Assembly: GCA_022497155.1 (NCBI GenBank)
Contig: MU385760.1
Coordinates: 332,428 to 396,427 of the forward strand
Source of the DNA: Whalleya microplaca
Taxonomy: Eukaryota > Ascomycota > Sordariomycetes > Xylariales > Xylariaceae
DNA: 64,000 nt
Reading direction: 5' to 3'
Shown: piece by piece, positions 21,541 to 62,529 of the stretch
Position numbering within the stretch: the stretch's first letter is position 1
Layout of the letters: every line of letters starts with the position of its first letter
Position numbers and translations under genes: made by a program
The notes under the pieces: model-generated
What the model saw: the letters and a program-made list of their open reading frames with translations, nothing else
What the model was told of the DNA's origin: nothing
Databases searched by the model: none

Positions 21541-23252
21541 TCATAATTTCGACTGGATCTTGTCCCAGAGCCCGAACGTTTCCAATCCCGCCCCTCCATC
21601 GAATATATCTCTCTCGACCTTCCTGGAGTTAATCTGCAACATGTATGTCAGCTAGACAGACTATCGAAGCCTCGGTGGCTTAGAGCCTGTGTGGGTGGGT
21701 TGCACTTACATGTCTAGGGCCCAGCTGGCTTATTTTTTCGACCCCCAACAGCCTCATACAAGTTTCCGTTTCTGCTTTTAGAACTGCACATGTGCGTTGC
21801 ATTGTCAGTTGCTGCGCCTCGCTACCTAGACTACTAGAAGGTCGATGATGGATAAGATAGGATAGACTTACTCTCCAGCGTCCGTTCAACTCCCTGCTGT
21901 CCGCCAGCACCGAGACCAAATAAGGCGGCGCGGCCGATGCCGACGGCTCGCGCACCTAAGCAAAGTGCCTTTACGACGTCCGTCCCACGCTTGATCCCAC
22001 CGTCGACCCATACCTCAATGTGGTTGAATACGTCAGGGCAGTACTTCCGAATCTCCAATAGTGTGTGGACGGCCGGCGGTGCCGTATCTAGCGCGCGGCC
22101 TCCGTGGTTGGATAGAATCACCGCCTTCACCTGCGGTGCGTACTTGGCAGCTAGGTACGCATCCTCGTGCGTCTGGACGCCCTTCAGCACGATGGGCAAG
22201 TCGGTGTGCTTCGCCAGCCATGCCAGCGTGATCTTCCACGTCAGATCGGCGGCGGTGCCGAAGAAGAGCTGCTGGCCCACGCCACCGCCGCCGGGGCGGT
22301 TCGGTTCCTCCTTCGTCTTGACGCCGGACGCGACGGTGACGGCGTTCTTGAAACTCTGCTTCTCGTCGAGCTCGCGCTTGCCGGGCACCGGCGCATCGAG
22401 TGTCAGCACGATGCACTTGAATTTGTCGGACATCTTGTTGATGCGGGCGAGCATGGCCTCGCTCTTCGCCCGGTCATTCTGGACATACAACTGCCAGCCG
22501 AATATCTGGCCGGGCTGCGCGTCCGCCACGATCTGCTCGGGCGTCATCGAGGCGTTGTTCGAGATGACCTGTAGAGCGCCAAATCTGCTGCACGCGCGAG
22601 CAATGCCTGCCTCGCCGTCGGGATGACCTAATCTCGCCATAGCGGCCGGGGCCACGAATATGGGTATATCGACTTTGTGGCCTAGCAACGTTGTGGAGCT
22701 GTCGCACTTCGTGCAATCGACGAATACTCTCGGCCTTAGGAGAATGTCCCTATAGACCTTGCCATTGAAGGACTTAGAGAATGTGTCGTCGCTGGATGAG
22801 TAGTAGTACGCCCAAGCTTTCTCCGGCATCTGCTTCGTCGCCACCTCCTCTATCTCATCCAAATTTAGTAAACTCTCCATAGGAGGCGGTCCCTCTGCGT
22901 CCTTCTTCTCATCCTTAGCAGCCGGCTCACTTGTCTGGGCCAACGCTTTAGGATCAACCTTTCCTAGATTATCCTCCGGCTTCAGGTTCTCTTCGAGTAG
23001 GCCCGGAGGATGTATGGGATCATAGTCCTCCGTTGCATCCTGGCCGGCCAGCTGAAGAATGATTTTGGAACCTCCAGGATGTGAAGGGAGGAATTCGGTC
23101 ACGTCATAAACATTGCCATATAGAACCACCCAGCAGCTCTCGGCCGTGGTATGTTTGACAACTGCGGACACCGTTTAGTTTAGCTTGCCCCCAGTAGACG
23201 TGGGATTGGTGGTCAACATACGTTCTTCTGCGCTGATAAGCTTCTCTGCCAT
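21541..23252 (-). CDS. CYB2: Cytochrome b2-type L-lactate dehydrogenase (FMN- and haem-dependent)
   Basis: Oxidises L-lactate (or a related 2-hydroxy acid) to the keto acid and passes electrons through FMN and haem towards cytochrome c. It has 495 residues in four exons (23252-23222, 23161-21872, 21783-21710, 21633-21541); introns of 60, 88 and 76 nt all keep phase. An N-terminal cytochrome b5 domain has axial ligands His38 (SHPGG) and His61 (DPIHPP), spaced 23 residues as in yeast Cyb2. The FMN domain has the KAWAYY tyrosine segment, [13 protein letters not shown] (Asp and Arg), IVLKGVQ (flavin lysine) and SNHGGRALD (catalytic His and Arg). The protein starts directly at the b5 domain ([14 protein letters not shown]), with no room for the long mitochondrial presequence of yeast Cyb2, so it may act in the cytosol. 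The substrate is inferred. Confidence 0.93.
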
Positions 23253-30092: not shown

Positions 30093-31935
30093 ATGGATAC
30101 CAGTCCGAAGGTCGGCGATCGGCTATCTTACGATGGAGCTGTCTGCACTGTTCGATACGTGGGCGAAGTCGCTGGCACATCTGGGCGCTGGCTCGGCGTC
30201 GAATGGGACGACCCAGGCCGAGGAAAACATGACGGCTCTTATAAGGGAGTGAGCTATTTTAAATGTAAGTGAGATATCTGATTAATTTTCATCGAGTGAA
30301 CGATTCTGTCCTAATTATGAGAAGGCCAATCGAGAGCATCGACCGCTGCGTCCTTCGTGCGGCCAACCCGGCCTGCCGGAAAGGCACAGAGCTTTGTTGC
30401 GGCATTGACTGAGAAGTACGCCGCGGAACTGTCAAATGCGAGTGCAATACAGTTCTCGGGCAAGATAGCAGAGGAAGTCGGGTTCGAAAAGATCCGTCGT
30501 AAGCAGGCTCAATTATCCGAACTGAAGGTCGTCATCCTCGACGATTCACGTGTTGCGTCGGTCTATGCCGATGGCGACAAACCTATCAGTGAGATATGTC
30601 CTAAGGTTGTCGAGTTGGACCTCAGCCGTAACCTCTTCCAGAGGATTGGCACGGTCATAGCCATCTGTTCTGAGCTGCCTGGCTTACGCAACTTGCGCTT
30701 GAAGTGAGTCACAGCCCATTTCGCTCCCCAGTTACATCTAGTTACTCAACAGAACTAGTGGCAATCGATTTCAAGATATCCTCAGTGATGAAGGCCTACG
30801 AGGTGCTGAACAATTCTTGGAAAATACCAAGGATCTGTGGCTTGAGGCAACACTGATGAGTTGGGAAGAGACGTGCCACATCGCGACCAAATTTGAAGCA
30901 CTTGCACTTCTCTCAGCTAGCACGAATCAGCTGTCCTTTCTCCCGCCGGTTCCTCTAGGATCATTAACCTCAACTCTGGTATCTTTGAACCTAGAGTTCA
31001 ATGATTTCACCGCTGTAGCCGATGTTGCGCGGCTTGCCGAGTTGAAATCGCTTCGCAATCTCTACCTCAAAGGCAACCGCATTTCCATGATTACGCAAGA
31101 CCCGTCACATGGATCGCCGGTCTTCCCAATAAGTCTAAAGTATCTCGATGTGTCATATAATCAAGTATCATCATGGGCGTTCGTCGACGCACTCCCGACC
31201 TGTTTCCCCGGCCTAACCTCTCTTCGCTTTTCCCATAACCCTATCTACGACAACCCGGATCCTGAATACTCCATCCACTCTAAGACAGTCGCAGAAGAAG
31301 CGTACATGTTCACAGTTGGTCGCCTCGCTACTATCCAGAGCCTCAACTTTGGCACAATCTCTCGTAGCGATCGCCAGGATGCCGAAATGTTCTACCTAGC
31401 GCGTATTGCCAAGCACCTAGCTGCAGTACCGGAGAGTCAGGAATCAGAGATCATCAAGCATCACAAGCGTTATGCTGAGCTGTGCGGGCTGTATGGGCCG
31501 CCAGTAGTCAACAGGCAAAAAGAGATAAATCCTGCTTTCCTGGAAGCCAGACTAGTAGCTGTTCACTTCGTTTTCCATCCAGCAGATGGCGGAGACACCA
31601 TAGAGAGGATCACCAGGATCCCAAGGAGTTTTGATATCTACACCGTTAAGGGGATTGCTGGCAAGCTGTTCGGCGTTAGACCGCTTGGTCTGCGTTTGAT
31701 CTGGGAAACGGGAGAGTGGGACCCTGTTGCCGGGTTTGACGATGAAGTTGAAGACAGCAGTGACGAAGATATGGAGGAGCAAGTGGAAGAAGCCGTACAC
31801 CTAGGTGAGAGCTCGCAACCGGAAGGCAGGGCTGGTAAGTGGGTCAAGCGAGAGGTTGAGCTGCAAGACGGGCCACGGCAGCTTGGATTCTGTGTTGATG
31901 GCCTAGAGGCAAATATCCGGGTTGAAACCCGGTGA
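30093..31935 (+). CDS. PAC2: Tubulin-specific chaperone E (tubulin-folding cofactor E)
   Basis: Cofactor E binds alpha-tubulin during assembly of the tubulin heterodimer. It has 577 residues in three exons (30093-30264, 30325-30703, 30753-31935) with introns of 60 and 49 nt. An N-terminal CAP-Gly domain (residues about 7-58) has the conserved GRWLGVEWDDPGRGKHDG segment. Leucine-rich repeats fill the middle (VVELDLSRNLFQRI, LVSLNLEFNDFTAV, LRNLYLKGNRISMI, LKYLDVSYNQVSSW). A ubiquitin-like domain forms the C-terminus and is interrupted by an acidic insert (DDEVEDSSDEDMEEQVEE). The domain order CAP-Gly, LRR, UBL is diagnostic for TBCE (Pac2 in budding yeast, Alp21 in fission yeast). Confidence 0.95.
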
Positions 31936-32338
31936 TGCAGATATCTTTACTGTAGCTTATTCAAGCAGTTCACAAGCTGGTATGTATGTCTTCCCACTGT
32001 ACATACTTCAGTTACTTAAGCAAGCCTCTAGATCCAAGAAAGTTCTATTGCGGAAGAACGAATGTGAAATTTACTATAGATTCTACGAATGTCTTGGGTT
32101 GTCTGACAAAGTTTGCTTTCATTGGCTATCCAACAGCAATATACAAACGCATAGCAACACTAATACGGAATAAACCACCAACAACTATAAGCAAACAGAG
32201 AGGCTACCAACTCAAACGATGCAACAAAGCCTACCTTCTTAAGAAGACTCATCAATGACACATGCAACTTATGACTCTTTACTAGCGATGACTAAAGTCG
32301 TCATAACCTGAACCCTACAACCACCTGAATCTCAAGAA
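31936..32338. other. Intergenic
   Basis: Spacer between two plus-strand genes; only weak, unconserved ORFs. Confidence 0.5.
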
Positions 32339-34042
32339 ATGGTTCAGAGACCAGCACCACCAACGTCATCAAGCTCATCTAGTCTCGGGCATAGCCAGAG
32401 TCTCCCGACAGCAGAAACGATGAGCCTAAATCAGAAACACGCCACCAACAGCGGGGGCAGCACCAAGTCTGCGCCACCGAATCTGCCAACCCCTAACCAC
32501 CAGATCCCCTTACCACACCACTTCCTCGTGCGTCCCGGGGCAACCAGACACACGGCCTCGGGCACGGTGACGATCCCAGGTCCCATCGTGCCGCTCGTGG
32601 CCGTCGACCAGCTTCCCGAGTGGCTCGATCTGGTCGGAGTCCCGCGCGAGCTGAGCCTGGAGCAGACAGTCGGGCTCTCCAACTTGGGCACCGTGATCAG
32701 GGACCCTGAATACTATGAAGTCGCGCAGACATACAGCGGCTACAAAGATGACGACGATGGTGAAGTGCAGCAGGGCCCGGACACATCAGTGGGGAACAAT
32801 TGCAGACATCAGCAACGACAGCGTCGTGACGACACCGCCGACAACAGCAGCAGCACGAATCGAGCAGTGAACCCACCATCCACTTCCTCCTCGTCAGCAA
32901 CCGTGGCACCAACGAACTCGCGCATGGATCCCGCCGCCAAGTCCTTCACCAGCACCAGCGCCAGCACCAGCAAACCCGGTCTCGGCAGCAGCAAGCATGC
33001 CCCCGGTACCACCAACAACAGATCCAACGCCAACGCCAACAACACACTCAGCAACACCAACGCCACCGAGCCGCCCACGCTCATAGGCCTACACCCGCGT
33101 CTGCCCTCGCCCACCGTCACCGGCAGCACGCCGCCCGGAAACCCGTATCCGGTGATCCGCGCGCCGGCGGCGCCGGCGCACTACGCAAGCTACGCCAATG
33201 CCTCCCCCTTGCACCCGGCGGACCGCCTGCTCGCGCACAGCTACACACCTCAGGCGCCGCACGCGCACGCGCACAAACCCAACAACACCACCTCCTCAAA
33301 CCCCAACCACGGAGGAGGAGCGGGACGCGCGAGCACGCACCAGCAGGGCACAAGCAGAGTGTACTGCCATCACTGGTGCCACCACGGGACCTGCAAGTGG
33401 GGGCGGACGTGCCGGTACGCGCACGCGATGCCGGGGACGGTCGAGGGCCTGCGCGAGGTCGGCCTGCGCGAGTTCCCGGCCTGGTACATGGCCGCCATGG
33501 CGTTCGCGGGGCCCCACCACCACCCCCTGGGGCTAGGAGGGCTGCCGCTGCACCCGCACCAGATGGCGATCGGTGGTGGTGGGGGGGTGTGGTATCCTAC
33601 CGTCCCTCAAGGTGGCGCTGCTGGCGGTATGCTGGTTGCTGCTGGTGGAGGAGGAGGTGGTGGTGGGGGTAGGAGGGCTAGGGAGCGCGAGCGGAGGGAG
33701 CTGATGAATGCGATGGCTGGTACGGCGGGCGGGAGTGGAGGAGGGGGAGGGAAACAGCAGCGGCGGGAGGGCGGTGGCGAGGGTGAGGGTATCAAGGACG
33801 CGGAAAGATCCCAGCGCCAGCACCAGCAGCGTAACCGCAAGGGAAAAGGGGTCGACAAGACTAGCGCCGGCTCCGGTGGCAACAATGGACCCGAGTCAAG
33901 AACCAAAGCAGAGGCTGTTCGCAAGCAACCCGACCAGCTGGAGAAGGAGAAGGCGGAGGCCGCTGCGGCTGCTGACGAGGAGAAGAGAAAGCTGAAGGAG
34001 CTCGCTGATGCGCAAAAGGACCAGAAGCTGGTTGATATTTGA
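32339..34042 (+). CDS. CCCH zinc-finger protein with low-complexity arms
   Basis: Single-exon protein of 567 residues, probably RNA-binding. One C3H1 finger (CX8CX5CX3H, from CHHWCHHGTCKWGRTCRYAH) lies at about residues 343-362. A conserved-looking N-terminal block (PGPIVPLVAVDQLPEWLDLV, then PRELSLEQTVGLSNLG) precedes long Ser/Thr/Asn-rich and Gln-rich stretches. After the finger come a Gly-rich tract and a charged C-terminal helix (EKEKAEAAAAADEEKRKLKE). The start at 32339 is the first ATG of the frame; a second Met lies at residue 28. The gene is convergent with SDH2. Its target RNAs are unknown. Confidence 0.85.
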   Translation: MVQRPAPPTSSSSSSLGHSQSLPTAETMSLNQKHATNSGGSTKSAPPNLPTPNHQIPLPHHFLVRPGATRHTASGTVTIPGPIVPLVAVDQLPEWLDLVGVPRELSLEQTVGLSNLGTVIRDPEYYEVAQTYSGYKDDDDGEVQQGPDTSVGNNCRHQQRQRRDDTADNSSSTNRAVNPPSTSSSSATVAPTNSRMDPAAKSFTSTSASTSKPGLGSSKHAPGTTNNRSNANANNTLSNTNATEPPTLIGLHPRLPSPTVTGSTPPGNPYPVIRAPAAPAHYASYANASPLHPADRLLAHSYTPQAPHAHAHKPNNTTSSNPNHGGGAGRASTHQQGTSRVYCHHWCHHGTCKWGRTCRYAHAMPGTVEGLREVGLREFPAWYMAAMAFAGPHHHPLGLGGLPLHPHQMAIGGGGGVWYPTVPQGGAAGGMLVAAGGGGGGGGGRRARERERRELMNAMAGTAGGSGGGGGKQQRREGGGEGEGIKDAERSQRQHQQRNRKGKGVDKTSAGSGGNNGPESRTKAEAVRKQPDQLEKEKAEAAAAADEEKRKLKELADAQKDQKLVDI

Positions 34043-52996: not shown

Positions 52997-55900
52997 ATGG
53001 CTAAGAACGACGGTACACCTGTAAATTTGTTAGCTTTAGGTATGCATGATCATCGCTATCTAAAGCCTGAAGCTGACAAGGGCTAGACGGGGGTGGGATC
53101 AGGGGAATATGTGAGCTTAGGGTCCTTGATGAGATCATGAAGAGAATTCAGAAAGAGCAAAACCTCACCGAGCTGCCGAGACCATGCGACTATTTCCATC
53201 TCATGGCAGGAACCAGTACTGGAGGGTAAGTTTGTTGGTGGGATTCAACTTAAGGATACACTACATTGACGCGCGACATAGGCTCGTTGCCATTCTACTC
53301 TCCCGATTTAAGATGACGACGAGGGATGCCATAGCGGCCTACTACGACTTTTCCAGAAAGATATTTTCTAAGAAGAATAAAAAATTGGTCACCATTCATG
53401 AGTACGGCGTGGCAGTCTTCGAAGAGATAATTCAAGGTATGGTTGCAGCACATGGTATCGGCGAACTACTACTGGATACAAACCCATCCGCCCAGTCCAA
53501 GGCATTCGTCTGCTCCCAACGCGGGCACAATCAAGGGCCGGTTGTACGGTTTCGATCGTACGAAGCACCAGCGAAACCTAACGTGGTAAATTCTGAAGTT
53601 CCTCACGCAGAGGTATCGCATACTAGCTCGTCCATATCGAATAACTCGGTCATGACGAATGGCTCGACTATGACAAAGGGCTCAAATTCGAGGACGATTG
53701 ATACATGGGGTAATTTTGATGATATTAAGATTTGGGAGGCTGCTCGCGCAACAACGGCTGCTCCGGGGTACTTCAAGCCAATGGAGCTGGGTCGCGACGA
53801 GAACAAGATACCATTCATCGAGTACGTGTTCCGTAGTCTTTTCTTCCCTATTTTCCGCTGGTCTTGGGAGCTACGTCTGCCTGATTCAAATACTTTCTGG
53901 GTTGGATCCGAAGACCTAGCTTAAGACTCCTGTTATTGCAAGAACAGAGTATTTGCTAACTCCGGATTGTGTACAGCGGAGCAATGGGCTGCAATAATCC
54001 AGCATATGAGCTAGTTGATGAAGCGACGGCCCTTTTCGGAACGGACTGTGTCCTTGGCTCTCTCCTCAGTCTCGGGACTGGATATTCCGGGCCCAAAACG
54101 ATAGGACAGCGAAAGGGCATATTAGGGAAGATGGACCTTTTGACGAATGTAAAGAAGATAGTTACAGATACTGAAAATGTCCATCTGGGTCTAGCGGCAC
54201 AGATACGGCCTGACTTAGTACGCATTTCGAACTTCTTTCTTTCTTATTCCACCTTACATTAGGAGCCACGTCTGCCTCTTTATAACGTTTTGGGGCTTGG
54301 GCACCCGAGCTTAGAATCCCTCGATATATCTAGAAGAAGCTTTTACTAACTCCCGGCCGTGTACAGGATACCTACTTTCGGTTTCAACTACCCGCTGGAG
54401 CGGAGGATGTTGACTTGCAAGATTACGAGAAGTTAGACTACTTATCGCAGCTCATGAAAGAGTATATTGAGACAGAATCGTTGCAAATCGACAAAGTTGT
54501 CCATATACTACTTGGGAAGGCAAAACCGCGAGGCGTCACACTAGGCCAGATTGGTGAGTTAACCAACCTATTGTTTCACAACCATCCTCCTATTTTATGG
54601 CGTTGAGCTAATTTGTCTTCAAGTTCGGTCTGATCATGGCCAAATTTGCCCGTCCAAGGTGGAAACACGCGGCAGGCCATTTGTCAGCGATTTCTTCGTA
54701 GGGAGAGAGGAGATTTTAGAGAAGCTCGCTGAAACGTTCAATCCAACTTCGCAGCGGCACAATCGTAAGCGACAGCATCTTCTTCACGGCCAGCCAGGTG
54801 CTGGAAAGTCTCAGACGGCCGCGAAATTCCTGGATGACTACGGCCACTGGTACGTTTGCAGCCCCATCTTGATCCATCTTCTTATATCTCTACAGGTTTG
54901 ATATAGTCCTCTGGGTCGATGCTAGCAGCAAACAATCGCTTGAGATTGGCTTTAAGAATATTGAGGGTTTCTCTGAATACGGCTATAGCGGCGGTGGTTC
55001 TATAAAGGCACTGCTTAGATGGCTCGAGATGACAGAGCGACCCTGGATCCTTGTACTAGATGATGTGCGGGGCGACGTATCCGAGTATATTCCGCGTGGG
55101 AACAAGGGTAATGTGCTTTTCACAAGCCAGAATATGTCAATGAGGCCAAAGCTGCGAAGCCAGTCGATCACGAAGATCGAAGTACTGAACGAGATTGAAG
55201 CGGTAGAATTACTCCTATGCTGTGCCCGCCTCGACGTAGCCGATAAGAAGAAAAGGGCAGAGGCTCTAGAATTGTCAACAGCGCTAGGGTATCTGCCCCT
55301 GGCGCTCGAGCAGGCTGGCGCGACCCTGCGTATGAGGGACTACGAAATCTCAGAGTACGCGGAAATCCTCGAGAACCACCGTGACGACTTACTGAAGGCT
55401 TCAGGTTCTGAGGATATCCCCGCCGGCCTTCAGGCTGTATATGCGTCGTTCGATGTCACCTACAAGGTGCTTAATTCACGAGCTCACGATGCTTCGAGCG
55501 ATGAGCAGTCCAAAGCTGCCAGAAGCGCTCTTCAGTTACTTAGCCTGTTTTCCTTCTTCCATTACAGCGGCTTGATGGGCGCAATACTTAGGAGGTCATT
55601 CGAGAATCGCCCATCAGATAGAAGACCAGATGATCTTGGAATAGGGATTCAGTCCTTCAACGATCTTCTCAGCGCCGGCGAATCCGGGGAATGGAGAGAT
55701 TCTCAGTGGCGCAGTGGTGTGGACTTGTTGATCGAATACTCGTTGGTCAAGCCTAATCAAACCAAGCAATTCTTCTCCATACACGAATTGGTACATACTT
55801 GGGCGCGGAACAGGATGCCTGTCTACATTCGTCGCGTGCAGGCCGTGGCTGCTAGGCTGGTCTTGTTTGATTCTATTCTCTATTCTCCACAGACGGCTGA

Positions 55901-56969
55901 AGATCACCTATACAATGTGGAAGTGATTCCGCATTGTATAGCTGCCCTGACGAACACAGAAGACATTGAAATCGGCAATCCACGACTAGTGGCAATTCAG
56001 TATTTTAAATTTGGAATGTTGTTGAGTATGGTAGGCTTCATTACCAACGCCAGTCATCCGCTGAGAAAAGCCATTTCGGTCTGGAACGACGGAGTTGATT
56101 TTTTCACAGATGAATATGGCATGATGCTTAATGCTTCCGCTGATGTCATGCAAATTCAGTTCAATCCATATGGTGCCTATAAAATGAAAGACCTGGCTGG
56201 GCGTGTATTCAAAATGATGTATGGTCCTGTCAGTTTGCCTGTCTTTCGCCAGCTTATAGAACTTGCGGCATTAAAGACATTCATCGGGAGGTACAACGAA
56301 AGCGAGTTCCTGCTACGGTCTTTTCTATATATCCAGAGAATGATATGGCCGAATCATGAAAGATTGACGGCCATGACTAAGTATGCCGAGTGCCTCTTTT
56401 ACCTTGACCGACTAGATGAGGCTAGGGACCTCCTGATTGATGTGGTCCATGGAACCATCAACATGGTCGGCGATCGACATCCTCATACTCTCAAGGCACT
56501 TAACAATCTTGCGGCAGTCCAGGCTAGTTTAGGAAGCTGCGAGGAGGCAGAGGAGATGCTTCTCCTTGTGTTGGAAGCAGATGACAAACTCTATGGGTCT
56601 TATTACCGAGACCGGTGCTGCACCTTACACAACCTCGCAATCGTGCGCTTCTACCAAGGAAGATTTGATGAGGCGGAAGAGCTCTTTTGGCAGGCGCTAG
56701 AATCAAACTCGGGTGTATGGGATGGGCCTAACCACTGGTATCTACTCCACATCCAGGGTGTTTCGATAGCGGTTTATCGAGGAGGAAAACGGTCTGATGC
56801 CAGGAATCTCGGTGGCTTATACCATAAGCTGATAAAGCTCACGCTCGGCAGAGGACATCCCTTCGTGCAAGCGGCCCGATGGCAACTAAATTGCTTGATA
56901 TATGAGGACAACCGTGATCTGCCTATGCTGGACAGCACTGCTACCCAGATACATCCTATATTTCGATGA
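52997..56969 (+). CDS. Patatin/NB-ARC/TPR NOD-like receptor (PLP-1-like), candidate allorecognition and cell-death gene
   Basis: Multidomain NLR of 1149 residues in seven exons: 52997-53039, 53087-53225, 53282-53821, 53977-54217, 54367-54553, 54624-54849, 54896-56969. All phases close without a stop. The patatin-like lipase domain has the oxyanion loop DGGGIRG (15-21), nucleophile GTSTG (Ser58) and catalytic Asp241 in DGA (usually DGG). The NB-ARC domain has P-loop GQPGAGKS (439-446), kinase-2 ILVLDDV (510-516), GNVLFTSQN, and GYLPLAL (590-596). An IHELVH element near 754-759 takes the place of the MHD motif. TPR-like repeats fill the C-terminal part (LNNLAAVQASLGSCEEAEEM, LHNLAIVRFYQGRFDEAEEL). 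The order patatin, NB-ARC, TPR matches Neurospora PLP-1, which triggers death when it meets an incompatible SEC-9; SEC9 lies about 4 kb downstream. All catalytic elements are intact, so a working receptor is likely. Specificity is inferred from linkage. Confidence 0.93.
53822..53976 (+). repeat. NLR intron 3, related to intron 4 (introner-like candidate)
   Basis: 155 nt, unusually long for this window. It shares with intron 4 the 5' end GTACG, an internal block GGAGCYACGTCTGCCT, and a 3' end CTAACTCC...GTGTACAG. Confidence 0.6.
54218..54366 (+). repeat. NLR intron 4, related to intron 3 (introner-like candidate)
   Basis: 149 nt. Similar to intron 3 at both ends and in the middle, in the same orientation and spacing, as expected if one arose as a copy of the other or both from one element family. 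Confidence 0.6.
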
Positions 56970-57350
56970 TAACAATAGAGTAGTGTACTTTCTATCTTTT
57001 TAACTTAGATTTCAACGCGCTGCTAGAAAAGGGATGCCCATAAAAAAACTCGCTTTTCGTACAATAGGCATACTGACTGATCAGTGCGACTCTTTAATCG
57101 CCTTCGAAAAGTTGTCATAAACTGATTATTTTCTATTTCTGTCTTTATAACAGCCAGCATAGTACATGCTATTACATATAAGCGTCACTGCCGCATATTA
57201 AATTAATTACATGTTCTGATTAGGACTTAGCGAGTGCGGCGGCGTGAAATGTTCACAGAAGTGTGGTTGCTAACTGTAGAGTCTAGGATGACATGGCATC
57301 GTATAATATTTGTCCATGGGCGCCAGCTAATTCAACGTATGCTTCTCATC
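56970..57350. other. Intergenic, convergent 3' ends
   Basis: Lies between the stop codons of the NLR gene and DHR2; AT-rich, nothing else seen. Confidence 0.55.
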
Positions 57351-59612
57351 TTACATGACCTCCAAGATCCAGTCAGCCTGGATAGCACTGACTTTCTTAG
57401 CGTAGTTTTTCTGCGTAAACACGTGCTCTAAAAACATGATCGCCTCCTTCTTCTGGCCATGCAAGACGCTGGAGGGATGGATGGCTACGACGTGTTTGCC
57501 TTGTATCGTGACATAACTGGAGTCTGGTGCTAGAAGCGCACACTTTGTTCCAAAGCCCTTCATGAAGCATTTCAACAACGCTGCAGCTCTTTCTGGGGAC
57601 ATTGGCACAAATGGCTGAGGATCTGGCGCCGGCACTTCCGGAAGCATCCTTCCCTTCAGACAAATACCTCGAAGCTGCTTGCGGATATTGAGAGCTTGCT
57701 TCATGTTTCGGATGTTGATCTTTCGTTTCTTGCACCATTCAATTCGATCAGAATTTTCCGCCGTGTATCGCTGCATAGTAGTCAAATATGTGAGAATGTC
57801 CCCTTCTCGACGGTATAGTTCTCTGCGATACTCTTCCACCTCTTCTTTCACTTCTTCCGACAGAAGTTGGTAAAATATGTTTTCCCCGGACGTAATACAA
57901 GAAATGATATCAATAACCTCGAGAAGGCAGTCGTATTGAGGCTCGCTAGCAGCAAGTAGCACTCGCCCGTATGGTGCAGAGATGGGAAAGAGAGCCAACT
58001 TCTTCCCGATTTGCGTAATGGTGCCGTCATCTGCTAGGGCGCCGAGGAAGTGAAGATGGATCAAGGCTTTCTCAACGGATTCGATGCCAGGGAAATCCAT
58101 TAACGGAAAAGAAAGGATATCGTTGATACCGCGGGTTTTCATCGTCAGAATTGCACCTAAAATGTCGTTGCGTAAAATTTCTGGTAGATCAGCTTCTTGG
58201 AGCGAGTCATACGTCTCTGACGTATACATTCTGTAGCATTTCCCTGGCCCTACACGTCCAGCTCGCCCAGTGCGTTGAATCGCAGAAGACTTTGAGATAG
58301 CTTTCGCTAGTAAAGACTCCATTCCTAGCCGTGATCGGAATTGTTTTACTTTAGCCTTGCCACAATCGATCACGTAACGCACGCCAGGGACAGTGACAGA
58401 TGTCTCGGCAATATTTGTTGCCAGTACTACCTTTCTCGTGAAGCTCTTTTTGGCAGGCCGAAATACATCCTGTTGTGCTTGAATTGATAGTTGGCCGTAC
58501 AGAGGACAAGCTAGCAGCTTAGGCATGTCTGAAGCCAATTTGGCACAGTACTCTTCGATAAGCCGTTGAGCGGCCTCAATCTCTTCTTGGCCAGTGAGGA
58601 AAACTAGTATATCGCCCGGGAGTGGTTCATGCAGATGAATTGTGAAGATTTGCTGAAGAAGTGCTTCTTGTATGTCCGGGATAGGGTTGTCCGTATATTT
58701 GACCTCAACGGAATACTGCCTCCCTTTGATTTGAAGTAGCCGAATGGGATCATTCGACTCTTGAGTCCTGAAGAAGTCTTGGATTTTCTTGACATCTGCA
58801 GTCGCGCTCATGACCACAACCTTCAAGGGTATGCCCCCACGGCCGGATTTATCACTCGACAAGATCTGTTTTAGAAACCCGGCAATCAAGTCGACGTCTA
58901 CACTTCTCTCGTGGATCTCATCGACGATGATAGCACTATATTGACGAAGGTTCGGGTCTCGTAAGAGCTCTTGGAGAAGCATGCCTTCTGTAAGAAACTT
59001 GATTTTCGTACTCTTTGGAACACTGTGGTCGAATCGAACCGAGTACCCAACATGTCCATCCCGTGAAGACCCAAGTGGCGTCCCCATCTCACGAGCAACT
59101 CGACTGGCTAGTGTCGTTGCTGCAACGCGGCGCGGCTGGGTCACTGCAATCATTCCGCCCACGCCGACTACCCCAGATTGCACTTTGACCTTCTTCCTGC
59201 GACACCAAGGTTCATCACAGAGGAACTGGGGCACCTGTGTACTTTTTCCTGAACCAGTTTCGCCGACAATAAGTAGCACATCATTATCATCCCGCAAACC
59301 AGACTTTATTTCCTTCTGATGCGCCCATATTGGCAATGCTTTCCGGAAATCTAACAATGTCGGGTTTTGGCTGCTTGTGTGTCGCTTTGGGGTGTCATAT
59401 CTGTGAGTCTCTGGTTTTACTTCCTTTGCAGGTTGCTGCTGAGATTCTGCTGCTGCGGTGCTCTGTGTATCTATTGACAATCGCTCTGGGGCATCCTTCT
59501 GAGGCTGCAAGTATGCAGATAAGGAAATTGTCTTGTCTCCAATTTTGACGACGGACGCATCGTTTGTTGCCTTGATTTTACGCCTCTTGGGCCTATGTCC
59601 AGCTTCGGCCAT
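57351..59612 (-). CDS. DHR2: DEAH-box RNA helicase DHR2 (ribosome biogenesis)
   Basis: Nucleolar helicase needed for 18S rRNA maturation in yeast. One exon, 753 residues (yeast Dhr2 has 735). Motifs in order: I GETGSGKST, Ia TQPRRVAA, II DEIHER (DEIH variant typical of DEAH helicases), III SATADV, V ATNIAETSVTVPGV, VI QRTGRAGRVGPG. Winged-helix/ratchet and OB-fold regions follow (LYRREGDILTYLTTMQRY and YVTIQGKHVVAIHPSSVLHG). The basic N-terminus (GHRPKRRKIK) is a likely nuclear signal. It ends facing the NLR gene. Confidence 0.94.
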   Translation of the reverse strand: MAEAGHRPKRRKIKATNDASVVKIGDKTISLSAYLQPQKDAPERLSIDTQSTAAAESQQQPAKEVKPETHRYDTPKRHTSSQNPTLLDFRKALPIWAHQKEIKSGLRDDNDVLLIVGETGSGKSTQVPQFLCDEPWCRRKKVKVQSGVVGVGGMIAVTQPRRVAATTLASRVAREMGTPLGSSRDGHVGYSVRFDHSVPKSTKIKFLTEGMLLQELLRDPNLRQYSAIIVDEIHERSVDVDLIAGFLKQILSSDKSGRGGIPLKVVVMSATADVKKIQDFFRTQESNDPIRLLQIKGRQYSVEVKYTDNPIPDIQEALLQQIFTIHLHEPLPGDILVFLTGQEEIEAAQRLIEEYCAKLASDMPKLLACPLYGQLSIQAQQDVFRPAKKSFTRKVVLATNIAETSVTVPGVRYVIDCGKAKVKQFRSRLGMESLLAKAISKSSAIQRTGRAGRVGPGKCYRMYTSETYDSLQEADLPEILRNDILGAILTMKTRGINDILSFPLMDFPGIESVEKALIHLHFLGALADDGTITQIGKKLALFPISAPYGRVLLAASEPQYDCLLEVIDIISCITSGENIFYQLLSEEVKEEVEEYRRELYRREGDILTYLTTMQRYTAENSDRIEWCKKRKINIRNMKQALNIRKQLRGICLKGRMLPEVPAPDPQPFVPMSPERAAALLKCFMKGFGTKCALLAPDSSYVTIQGKHVVAIHPSSVLHGQKKEAIMFLEHVFTQKNYAKKVSAIQADWILEVM

Positions 59613-60012
59613 TTTTCGTGGTTATTCTGGCTGAAGGGTTCGGGTTAAGAAGCCGAAACAAAACTTTTGGAGGTGTAAGTACGGGGTACTTCGCTATAAG
59701 AGTTTGACCCCATATAATCACGTGACATTACAGTGCTAAAGGCACTTTATCAGCATGCACCAGGTACGTAATCCGTAGTCGCAATTGGATTCGTCCTCAC
59801 GAATATCCGGGCTGCGATTTGTCCAGCCTTGGACGTACATACATGATTTTATTCATATAACTCTGATATTTGGACTGCTAACCTTGAAATAGCTGAATGC
59901 TGTAGTTTGACTTAGTAATGCACCAGGCCTATCTTGTAATTGGTAGGTTTCTTGCTACGAAAAAAGTCGTGACCTAATGCATTCATGTGGTAACTTGATG
60001 GTCATGTATCTA
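59613..60012. other. Intergenic
   Basis: Upstream region of DHR2 and downstream region of the SDHAF3 gene; no ORF supported. Confidence 0.5.
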
Positions 60013-60504
60013 TTATTCCTGGTGGCCACTTTCATGTCTCTTTCGAATGGCTGTCATGAGCTCGTACATCTGCCCTATTTGTTGATCTGGATGGGTTCAT
60101 GTCAACATCTGGATGTACAGCAAGGGGAAACGGCGGACAAACCACTCATCTTCTCGACCTTTGCCGGGTCTAGTTTTTCGCCGACCCATGAATCGCCTTC
60201 GATCTTTTGGGCATAGAGTTGCCATTCTGTGAGAAAGCCAATCTTGGCCATAGTTAGCAATCAAGCCAACTTCAGAGTGAGAATGCTGCCTCACCAGATG
60301 TGCTGGGTTGTCGACGTTCCTGTGTGCGCGGAACTCGGCTTTGATATACTCGTCGCCCAATAAGCGCATCTCAGCTGGTAGATGCTTCCGATGAGCTCTA
60401 AATAAACGACGATAGAGCGGGATCGGTGGCAATAAGGCCATTGGCGCAGGCTTTAGGCCACTACCCGCCGTCGCTGTGGCTAAAAGTCTAGGTGATGGTT
60501 TCAT
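60013..60504 (-). CDS. SDH7: SDHAF3/ACN9, mitochondrial complex II assembly factor (LYR protein)
   Basis: Matrix LYR-family factor that protects the iron-sulfur subunit SDH2 from oxidation during complex II assembly. The proposed model has 123 residues: exons 60504-60295, 60242-60143 and 60074-60013, introns of 52 and 68 nt. The start MKPSPRLLATATAGSGL looks like a short presequence. The LYR motif is in PPIPLYRRLFRAHRK, followed by the family block LGDEYIKAEFRAHRNVDNP and, across the first intron, HLIGFLTEWQLYAQKI. The second intron (GTTTGT...AATAG) restores the conserved end KMSGQMYELMTAIRKRHESG. Without it the frame would end in an unconserved Cys/Ser tail. The first intron is firm; the second rests on homology. 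Confidence 0.87.
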
Positions 60505-61136
60505 AGATAATTCAATTCGATAGGGATGGACTCGGAAGGTTGTCGGAAGGTTGCCATAGACGGTGCACATGTGTGTACCTAGGTAGTATGATGTCCTGGG
60601 GCTTACTGTACATATAAACAATTTACTGAACTACACACTGTATAATTGACAAAACGATGGCTACCAGGTAGGTAGGATGTAGATACCCAAATTACTGAGT
60701 ATTAGCCAAGATAAAATATCTCAACTTGACTGCTTAACTAAGCCCTCAGAGGTAATTTATTAGAGGAATAATTAGTAAACCTCCCATTATCACAATGATA
60801 GACGCAAATTTCAGCTTCAAAATGAGAACGAGAATTACAAGTACTAGATAACTGTCGAAACAAAAAGCACGTAGAATTTAAAGCAAGCATGTGCCCAGAC
60901 ATATTCAACTATGACATAATTTAGTGTTCCCTTATACATAGTTAAACTCTTTTTACTGATCTGTTGATGAAATAGTCGGTCTGTCAGAGACAAAGCATAG
61001 GCATTCTACACTAGATCGTCTAAACTAAGCATCACTTGAGTATTAAAGGAGGCGAGACCACTGGATATTATTCATTCCTCCTCGGTATCAACCAAGCCAA
61101 CGTAGTCTATATGGAATGCATTGTACAGCTTGTCTT
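60505..61136. other. Intergenic
   Basis: Between SDHAF3 and SEC9; contains a TACCTAGGTA palindrome (60576-60585) near the SDHAF3 start and otherwise AT-rich DNA. Confidence 0.5.
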
Positions 61137-62529
61137 TTAAACGTGGAAATTGTTCTTTAGTATTTGGGTGTTCGCTTTGAGGGAGTCGTCAAGTGGATCG
61201 GCCTGTGTGTCATGGTCAGCTTGACTTACATGTGAAAGGCAATGATAGTATAGGTGTTTTGCATACCTTGTGGCCAATCCTTTCAATGACTTTGTTGCTT
61301 TGGTCGAGCTCCTCACCCATGGCTCGCGCAATATGGTTTAACGTCTTTAGCCGACCATGTGTGGCATCAAGGTTGTTCTCAATGATTTCGTTTTGCTCTC
61401 GTCGAACCTTGGCGCCCTCCTCGTCAGAATCGTCCAGAAATAAATATTTGGATATTTTGTCGTCATTGGGTCGAGAAAAAGACTCAGGAACCTGATCTCT
61501 GTTCAATTCTCTGAATTTGGACTCCATGCGAGCATTCTGAGCAAACTTGTCTCTTCTGGTAGCCTCACGTATCTCCCTGTCAGCCTTGTTCTGAGCGATG
61601 ATCCTCGCTTCTGCTTCAGCGGTCCTGCGCTTCTCAGTGAAAGGGTTTTTGACATGAACAGCAAGCATGCTCCGGTTCAAACTCTTCAACTTCTTCGTAG
61701 ATGCTACAGCTTCATGCTGCTGCTGAGTTGCAGCGTCAAGATGATGCTCGGCATTATGAAGACGCTCACTCTGAGCACCAAGCCTTGCGTACGTCGCCAA
61801 AGCAGTTTCAATTGATTGATCTGCTATATTGAGCACATTTGAGGAGGTACCAACAGATTCGCCGGTGAGCTTGTCGACCGTCTTCTTCTTCGCCCGATAC
61901 TCCTCCTCTTCTTCCTCCTCTGCCGTGAGCTCGCGTTGTTCTCCGTAGCCACCGTATTTACTGGTGTCTGAATTGGCACCAGAAGCCCCGTAACCTCCGT
62001 TTTGTTGATTCGGTAGACTTTGGTCATGCCGCTCTCGAGCACCGGAGAATAGAGCATCTCGGTTCACGTCTGTATTATTGCTGTCGGTCCGACCAAGTCC
62101 ACCGTAGCCCCCAGGCCGACTGGCGCCCAAGGATGGAGCACTGCCATAGTTGTTGGAATTGCCGTATTTGCTGCTTCCGTAGCCCGATGCTGTGCCGTAT
62201 TTGTCATTGGCGTAGCCAGCAGATGCTGGTCCATTCGGGTAGGCAGGCGGGGCCGTCGCAGAAGAAGAATGGCTGTCATTGCGGGACAACGCAGGAGCAC
62301 CGTATCCGCTCTGAGGCCCCGGACCGCTGGGAAGGCCCTTCCGAGCCTGCTGGTAGGGAGTCATATGGGCATATTTGTTGTTATCGCCAGCATACGGATC
62401 ATTCGCAGCTTGAGGTTGTGCATAGGGATTGTCGTTGGATGGCGCTGGTGAGCCTCTCTTTCCGAACAGGGCCGATCGGTTGGCGTCGTCCCCATCGGCT
62501 GGCTTCTTGCCGAATCCGAACTTCTTCAT
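61137..62529 (-). CDS. SEC9: SEC9, plasma-membrane t-SNARE (SNAP-25 family)
   Basis: Qbc-SNARE for fusion of secretory vesicles with the plasma membrane, 442 residues in two exons (62529-61267 and 61202-61137; 64-nt intron). The N-terminal half is Gly/Tyr/Ser/Pro-rich (GFGKKPADG, repeated KYG/GYG units). SNARE helix 1 spans about residues 225-295, with the zero-layer Gln in LGAQSERLHNAE. SNARE helix 2 spans about 370-440. By gap-free alignment to SNAP-25 its zero-layer Gln falls on Ser in MGEELDQSNKVIERI. The intron lies late in helix 2, and the last exon encodes ADPLDDSLKANTQILKN and the end. An acidic run (TAEEEEEEEYR) precedes helix 1. In Neurospora, sec-9 is tightly linked to the NLR gene plp-1 and the two determine compatibility. 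Here the NLR is about 4 kb away. Confidence 0.94.

Follow-up and report, generated by a model that had tools for sequence, protein, structure and literature searches.

Gene content and order at the NLR–SEC9 locus

The DNA analyzed here is a 64,000-nucleotide window (i.e., the whole stretch examined) that makes up the last 64 kb of a 396,427-bp contig (C51) in the 48.1-Mb, 114-contig assembly of Whalleya microplaca (Xylariales), a wood-dwelling fungus for which this one genome is the basis of all statements on the species. Within it, a gene for a NOD-like receptor (NLR) with patatin, NB-ARC, and tetratricopeptide-repeat (TPR) domains (52997..56969, + strand) is convergent with a gene for the SNAP-25-type t-SNARE SEC9 (61137..62529, − strand), and we consider this pair as a candidate allorecognition haplotype. 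The two stop codons are 4.2 kb apart, in keeping with the ~4 kb estimated in an earlier, sequence-only reading, and it is the TPR end of the one gene and the SNARE end of the other that point inward, toward two intervening − strand genes. Those genes, recognized by domain search and lying within the presumed haplotype block, encode a DEAH-box helicase (DHR2-like; 57351..59612) and a Complex1_LYR protein (SDHAF3-like; 60097..60504); the domains implied when these genes were first called DHR2 and SDHAF3 are present, with the names themselves being consistent with the domains found. Upstream of SEC9, sequence is visible for a further 1.47 kb from the gene's start, where the contig ends. Only three short repeat pairs flank the NLR–SEC9 pair, and no tandem array was found near it.

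The NLR gene model has seven exons (52997-53039, 53087-53225, 53282-53821, 53977-54217, 54367-54553, 54624-54849, and 54896-56969) separated by GT/AG introns, with the exon 2 acceptor (53087) taken from database model P0002; its 1149-amino-acid product matches a database protein of W. microplaca. Patatin, NB-ARC, and TPR domains all scored above the Pfam cut-off in this one protein. By sequence, the patatin nucleophile Ser58 (GTSTG; 53215..53217), the catalytic Asp241 (DGAMG; 53820..53977, its codon split by the intron at 53822-53976 and assembled across the splice junction), and the P-loop GQPGAGKS (residues 439-446; 54788..54811) are all intact, bearing out the complete receptor with a Ser58/Asp241 dyad that had been read from the DNA. 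The C-terminal TPR half (residues 791-1149; 55890..56969) is the variable half of the protein and the one facing SEC9. An AlphaFold2 model built from 23 sequences (mean predicted local distance difference test score 80.9; predicted template modelling score 0.60) contains a superhelix of 15 helices, arranged as helical hairpins, over residues 821-1132, and Foldseek ranked first, as matches to the model, a TPR-containing STAND protein, CapV, Apaf-1, plant NLRs, and a patatin. Bacterial CapV, a cGAMP-activated patatin phospholipase, shares the effector fold with the NLR model; unlike the NLR, it is activated by a nucleotide signal, and the match covers the patatin part only. Paralogy within the W. 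microplaca genome was considered and rejected, the other own-genome matches being fragments with 26-47% identity.

SEC9 (exons 62529-61267 and 61202-61137) has one small intron and encodes 442 amino acids with both SNARE motifs, in which layer positions were assigned according to the SNAP-25 spacing. The Qb motif (residues 216-282; 61684..61884) keeps the ionic-layer Gln253, and the Qc motif (residues 376-437; 61155..61404, interrupted by the intron at 61203-61266), which faces the NLR, has Ser411 (61297-61299) at its ionic layer. The model is supported by homology, the best solved-structure match (with exon 1) being a yeast-type SEC9 chain (E 4.5e-17); a Pfam search at 1e-3 gave no match. This is the only SEC9 found in the 48.1-Mb genome. 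Its protein is absent among the database matches listed, where a full match would head the list, and the gene is probably missing from the public W. microplaca proteome annotation.

Across 100 aligned SEC9 proteins, the Qc ionic-layer residue is Gln in 47, Gly in 47, and Ser in 6. Gly or Ser occurs in Xylariaceae-type sequences, Biscogniauxia, Annulohypoxylon, and some Hypoxylon, and Gln in Daldinia, other Hypoxylon, Jackrogersella, and all non-Xylariales rows; there are perhaps two old SEC9 classes crossing the Hypoxylaceae.

Linkage, ancestry, and SEC9 divergence in related fungi

Physical linkage of the two genes, visible in the window as the sequence-only reading had it, recurs in relatives, across orders. 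In 13 of the 14 strains or species present in both match lists (nine Hypoxylaceae, three Coniochaeta, and Colletotrichum falcatum; the count omits W. microplaca), the contig bearing the NLR has exactly the same length as the one bearing SEC9; the exception is Daldinia eschscholtzii, in which the genes lie on two different contigs, possibly of two assemblies. As the shared contigs span 0.2-4.4 Mb (smallest 198 kb), this establishes linkage and not adjacency, with the locus tags 317916 and 317918 in CI-4A giving no more than a hint of closeness. No equal contig sizes occurred between different species in these lists. The product of the contig-to-genome fractions is ~1e-21 (45-Mb genomes assumed), a figure that, the species being related, is not a probability of independent events. 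The comparison used 51 of 71 NLR matches, from a search that scored the 7995 candidates sharing most words, together with the best 120 of 176 and the best 120 of 1074 matches of the SEC9 searches; because the protein search was word-limited, a missing NLR match is not proof of absence.

An NB-region tree (36 rows, quick method) placed the Xylariales NLRs together with the Neurospora crassa patatin-NB-ARC-TPR protein P0020, the SEC9-linked Coniochaeta and Colletotrichum NLRs, and other Sordariomycetes. This clade of 22 rows had a support of 93 in the Shimodaira–Hasegawa-like approximate likelihood ratio test, and a 24-row parent with two lichen fungi had 97; three W. microplaca NB-ARC genes (of seven own-genome matches) fell outside on long branches. 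The deep order of the patatin tree was left open. In the match list, P0020 comes after only Xylariomycetidae, one lichen fungus, and one Coniochaeta, and its alignment identity to the W. microplaca NLR is about 31%. N. crassa plp-1 and plp-2 are given as NCU09244 and NCU09245 in excerpts of the relevant report (PMC8982394). The NLR groups with P0020, which itself may be either PLP-1 or its neighbour PLP-2, and a placement in the PLP-1 clade is possible. The tree fits descent from one linked ancestor among the sampled Sordariomycetes, with linkage known for a minority of its rows.

To SEC9 divergence we applied a set of 93 of 215 listed proteins (named strains, mainly Xylariales, Colletotrichum, and Coniochaeta), to which the window and six outgroups were added. 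Rows from unnamed metagenomes and from bacteria were dropped, as were some of the basidiomycete rows and most of those from Hypocreales and Leotiomycetes. Carriers are the nine strains with NLR and SEC9 on a same-sized contig plus D. eschscholtzii (rows from different assemblies), and five other Daldinia SEC9s with unsettled NLR status were kept apart. Families were assigned by genus name. The eight-strain Hypoxylaceae group lacking an NLR match excludes Hypomontagnella, H. trugodes, and Jackrogersella, all of which have a diverged SNARE and gave no NLR match. Hypoxylon argillaceum, Xylariaceae-like by sequence, was counted with the Hypoxylaceae in the consensus measure (37 Xylariaceae rows) and with the Xylariaceae in pair tests (38 rows).

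SNARE distance exceeded N-half distance in 43/45 carrier pairs (94/105 with the other Daldinia added), versus 12/28 Hypoxylaceae and 16/703 Xylariaceae pairs without an NLR match; 13 of the latter 16 exceptions involve Durotheca, which was placed in the Xylariaceae group and is probably Hypoxylaceae. For W. microplaca, the same held in 10/10, 8/8, and 38/38 comparisons with the carrier, Hypoxylaceae, and Xylariaceae groups, respectively. Relative to the nearest N-half neighbour, the SNARE/N-half ratio was above 1 for 12/15 carriers and other Daldinia, 1/8 Hypoxylaceae, and 4/38 Xylariaceae. At N-half distances of 0.25-0.36, 186 non-carrier pairs had a mean SNARE distance of 0.107 (maximum 0.38), whereas W. 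microplaca and five non-carriers in that same range were at least 0.55 apart. In the Xylariaceae and Biscogniauxia without an NLR match (37 sequences), SEC9 is best conserved in its SNARE motifs, with identities to the group's own consensus of 0.93 and 0.91 (N-terminal parts, 0.84 and 0.79); against that consensus, the ten carriers scored 0.43 and 0.36 (N-terminal, 0.63 and 0.60) and W. microplaca 0.49 and 0.37 (N-terminal, 0.63 and 0.58). In a 24-row SNARE tree, the W. microplaca end branch was the longest (0.82; Biscogniauxia FL1348, 0.031; Xylariaceae FL0804, 0.025), whereas its N-half branch was an ordinary 0.18.

Colletotrichum sojae and C. plurivorum have SEC9s (P0139, P0153) that differ by 0.02 in the N half and 0.18 in the SNARE motifs, with low-identity windows from residue 331, which makes a haplotype polymorphism possible there. 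The SEC9s of Coniochaeta ligniaria and three relatives in Coniochaeta (P0164, P0193, P0194, P0197), a genus with a linked NLR, differ by 0.57-0.63 in SNARE and 0.18-0.20 in N half.

Trans-species haplotypes in Daldinia

Clear trans-species haplotypes spanning NLR and SEC9 were observed in Daldinia. The SEC9s of D. vernicosa and D. childiae are identical in Qb and 0.03 apart in Qc at an N-half distance of 0.17. D. vernicosa and D. loculata b, neighbours by N half (0.12), differ by 0.30 and 0.56 in their SNARE motifs, and EC12 and D. eschscholtzii (N half, 0.08) by 0.30 and 0.54. For the NLR, patatin and TPR identities were 0.94 and 0.34 for EC12-eschscholtzii, 0.90 and 0.36 for decipiens-vernicosa, 0.82 and 0.81 for EC12-caldariorum, and 0.73 and 0.65 for eschscholtzii-vernicosa. 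Trees of the patatin region and the SEC9 N half placed EC12 with eschscholtzii; those of the TPR and SNARE regions placed EC12 with caldariorum, while eschscholtzii grouped with vernicosa in the TPR tree and fell in the same five-row set as vernicosa in the SNARE tree. Approximately unbiased (AU) tests rejected the swapped groupings in 8/8 cases (p 0.006 to 3e-54). The D. eschscholtzii NLR and SEC9 may come from different strains; EC12, caldariorum, and vernicosa each have both genes on a same-sized contig. In sliding windows between EC12 and eschscholtzii, NLR identity drops after ~residue 450 and is 0.16-0.48 from 785 on, and SEC9 identity drops after ~residue 205 to 0.17-0.80, with the exception of 1.00 at 271, the start of a conserved linker. 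The inward halves of the two genes sharing one old genealogy, discordant with that of the outward halves, is the look of a recognition haplotype.

The two halves also covary across ten linked NLR–SEC9 pairs, W. microplaca included. By partial Mantel test, TPR distance follows SNARE distance with N-half distance removed (r 0.69, p 0.0005) and with N-half and patatin distances both removed (r 0.62, p 0.0005), and leaving out one pair at a time gave r 0.59-0.73 (p ≤0.015). In NLR region 641-790, the pattern is that of the TPRs (partial r 0.89). No clear correlation was seen between TPR and N-half distance with SNARE removed (r 0.28, p 0.065), nor between the NB region and SNARE distance (r 0.33, p 0.09). 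Co-inherited, trans-species TPR/SNARE variation, which had been suggested as a test of the locus, was found in Daldinia relatives by trees, AU tests, and distance correlation.

Elsewhere in the window, a G+C-rich 576-codon open frame (32312-34039; 0.606 over 32001-34000) with a sub-threshold Torus-domain match adjoins a leucine-rich-repeat protein frame (30742-31932), and an open frame at 21837-23174 has cytochrome b5 and FMN-dependent dehydrogenase domains (flavocytochrome b2-like).

A probable recognition haplotype and its alternatives

We consider it likely that the locus is a PLP-1/SEC-9-type allorecognition haplotype, in which the NLR probably watches the nearby SEC9. The candidate role in allorecognition and cell death first proposed from the DNA is supported by the recurring linkage, the NLR clade, and the Daldinia co-haplotypes; in W. 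microplaca itself, a working allele pair may be presumed by extension from these relatives. From homology and the distance and tree patterns, the following mechanism may be suggested for the Xylariales locus. The TPR half of the NLR would read the SNARE half of SEC9, with the pair being silent within one haplotype. On fusion with a cell of another haplotype, foreign SEC9 would engage the TPRs, upon which NB-ARC would oligomerise and the patatin phospholipase would damage membranes, killing the fusion cell. That the NLR binds SEC9, oligomerises, acts as a lipase, and kills the cell, and that different alleles exist within W. microplaca, is thus inferred.

Several observations weigh against this account. 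The 12 outgroup sequences also score lower in SNARE (0.50 and 0.38; N-terminal, 0.54 and 0.54) against the non-carrier consensus, and for this reason the consensus measure alone does not mark carriers. Tajima counts, which are small, were in excess for W. microplaca in Qb against three outgroups, not against Colletotrichum, and showed no excess in Qc. Plain acceleration of Whalleya SEC9 is only half supported by these counts, and since the non-carriers' SNARE is also derived relative to outgroups, the better reading is that SNARE lineages diverged long ago and that one of these has frozen in the non-carriers. Diverged SNAREs also occur in three Hypoxylaceae that lack an NLR match, and Colletotrichum falcatum has a linked NLR yet a SEC9 SNARE distance of only 0.02-0.08 to six relatives. 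The AU clades were named after the matrices or trees had been seen. The patatin region correlates with both SNARE (partial r 0.62) and N half (r 0.68); because it does so, while region 641-790 tracks SNARE and the NB region does not clearly do so, the covariation is a gradient along the NLR and not a clean two-part division. Lastly, a test for an excess of variation on TPR helices A gave the opposite result, helices A being more conserved than helices B, which disfavours the simplest groove-binding picture.

The NLR might instead guard SEC9 against parasite attack, with diversity arising from an arms race and fusion death being at most a by-product. A guard origin is proposed in excerpts of two reviews (PMC12881547, PMC10197012), and SNARE diversification of NLR carriers would fit such a race; discrete trans-species haplotypes with co-travelling TPR and SNARE halves fit frequency-dependent recognition, and the N. 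crassa literature reports trans-species polymorphism, balancing selection, and death on allele mixing for sec-9/plp-1 (PMC7159315, PMC12881547), leaving defence without allorecognition improbable in our estimation. Far less probable is incidental linkage, i.e., that the NLR has another ligand and merely shares a conserved neighbourhood. Fungal families often keep gene order, and hitchhiking in one linked block could give part of the TPR–SNARE tracking; the linkage nonetheless extends to Coniochaeta and Colletotrichum falcatum, and TPR tracks SNARE beyond what N-half and patatin distance account for. That SNARE divergence reflects relaxed constraint or faulty gene models we find hardly credible. 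Annotation is imperfect, as seen from the unlisted Whalleya SEC9 and from four NLR models in which the Ser58 position is missing, but SEC9 is the only copy found in its genome, and an identical Qb in D. vernicosa and D. childiae despite a 17% N-half difference is unexpected from decay. Moreover, carriers keep the SNARE layer positions better conserved than the remaining positions (Qb, 0.68 versus 0.56; Qc, 0.59 versus 0.49; 16 sequences), although this is true of non-carriers too.

An allorecognition haplotype in W. microplaca would belong to a known type of system (PLP-1/SEC-9, het-Z, vic2), here in Xylariales with clear co-haplotype evidence in relatives. As in germling-regulated death through N. 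crassa plp-1/sec-9, a patatin-NB-ARC-TPR NLR would react to a SEC9 t-SNARE; unlike there, two housekeeping genes lie between the partners, and the W. microplaca pair is known from its sequence. Podospora anserina het-Z and Cryphonectria parasitica vic2 also pair a Sec9-type protein with an NLR or a patatin-like one, a likeness drawn from descriptions in excerpts of three sources and not from sequence (PMC12881547, PMC11138114, PMC10324583); excerpts of the 2025 review describe the recurrence of NLR/SEC9 pairing as apparently independent (PMC12881547), whereas one Sordariomycete origin fits the NB-region tree as far as its sampled members go. Botrytis cinerea Bcvic1/Bcvic2 and Aspergillus fumigatus hetC/hetE likewise tie NLR or patatin proteins partly to SNARE/exocytosis genes in incompatibility, according to parts of one source (PMC11138114), but have other domain architectures or partners. 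In the part of the literature surveyed, incompatibility-locus genetics for the Xylariales lineage was not seen; excerpts of one study of Daldinia eschscholtzii give only a count of 'heterokaryon incompatibility' proteins as a gene family (PMC4650942).

Ultimately, and with somewhat less than even confidence, NLR–SEC9 may be one ancient Sordariomycete supergene and not a set of convergent pairings, with haplotypes that outlive species, perhaps genera, and in which matched TPR and SNARE halves move as one block, so that balancing selection would also trap an rRNA-processing helicase and a succinate dehydrogenase assembly factor. With loss of the NLR, a single SNARE haplotype would become fixed and SEC9 would freeze; with its retention, an essential and normally near-invariant SNARE would be pushed to roughly 50-65% divergence inside a single order. 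With the NLR–SEC9 locus, the question of guard versus allorecognition becomes testable in a lineage rich in public genomes, which offers a natural contrast between related fungi with an NLR match and a diversified SEC9 SNARE and those without a match and a near-frozen one, and in which two unrelated housekeeping genes are predicted to hitchhike with incompatibility haplotypes.

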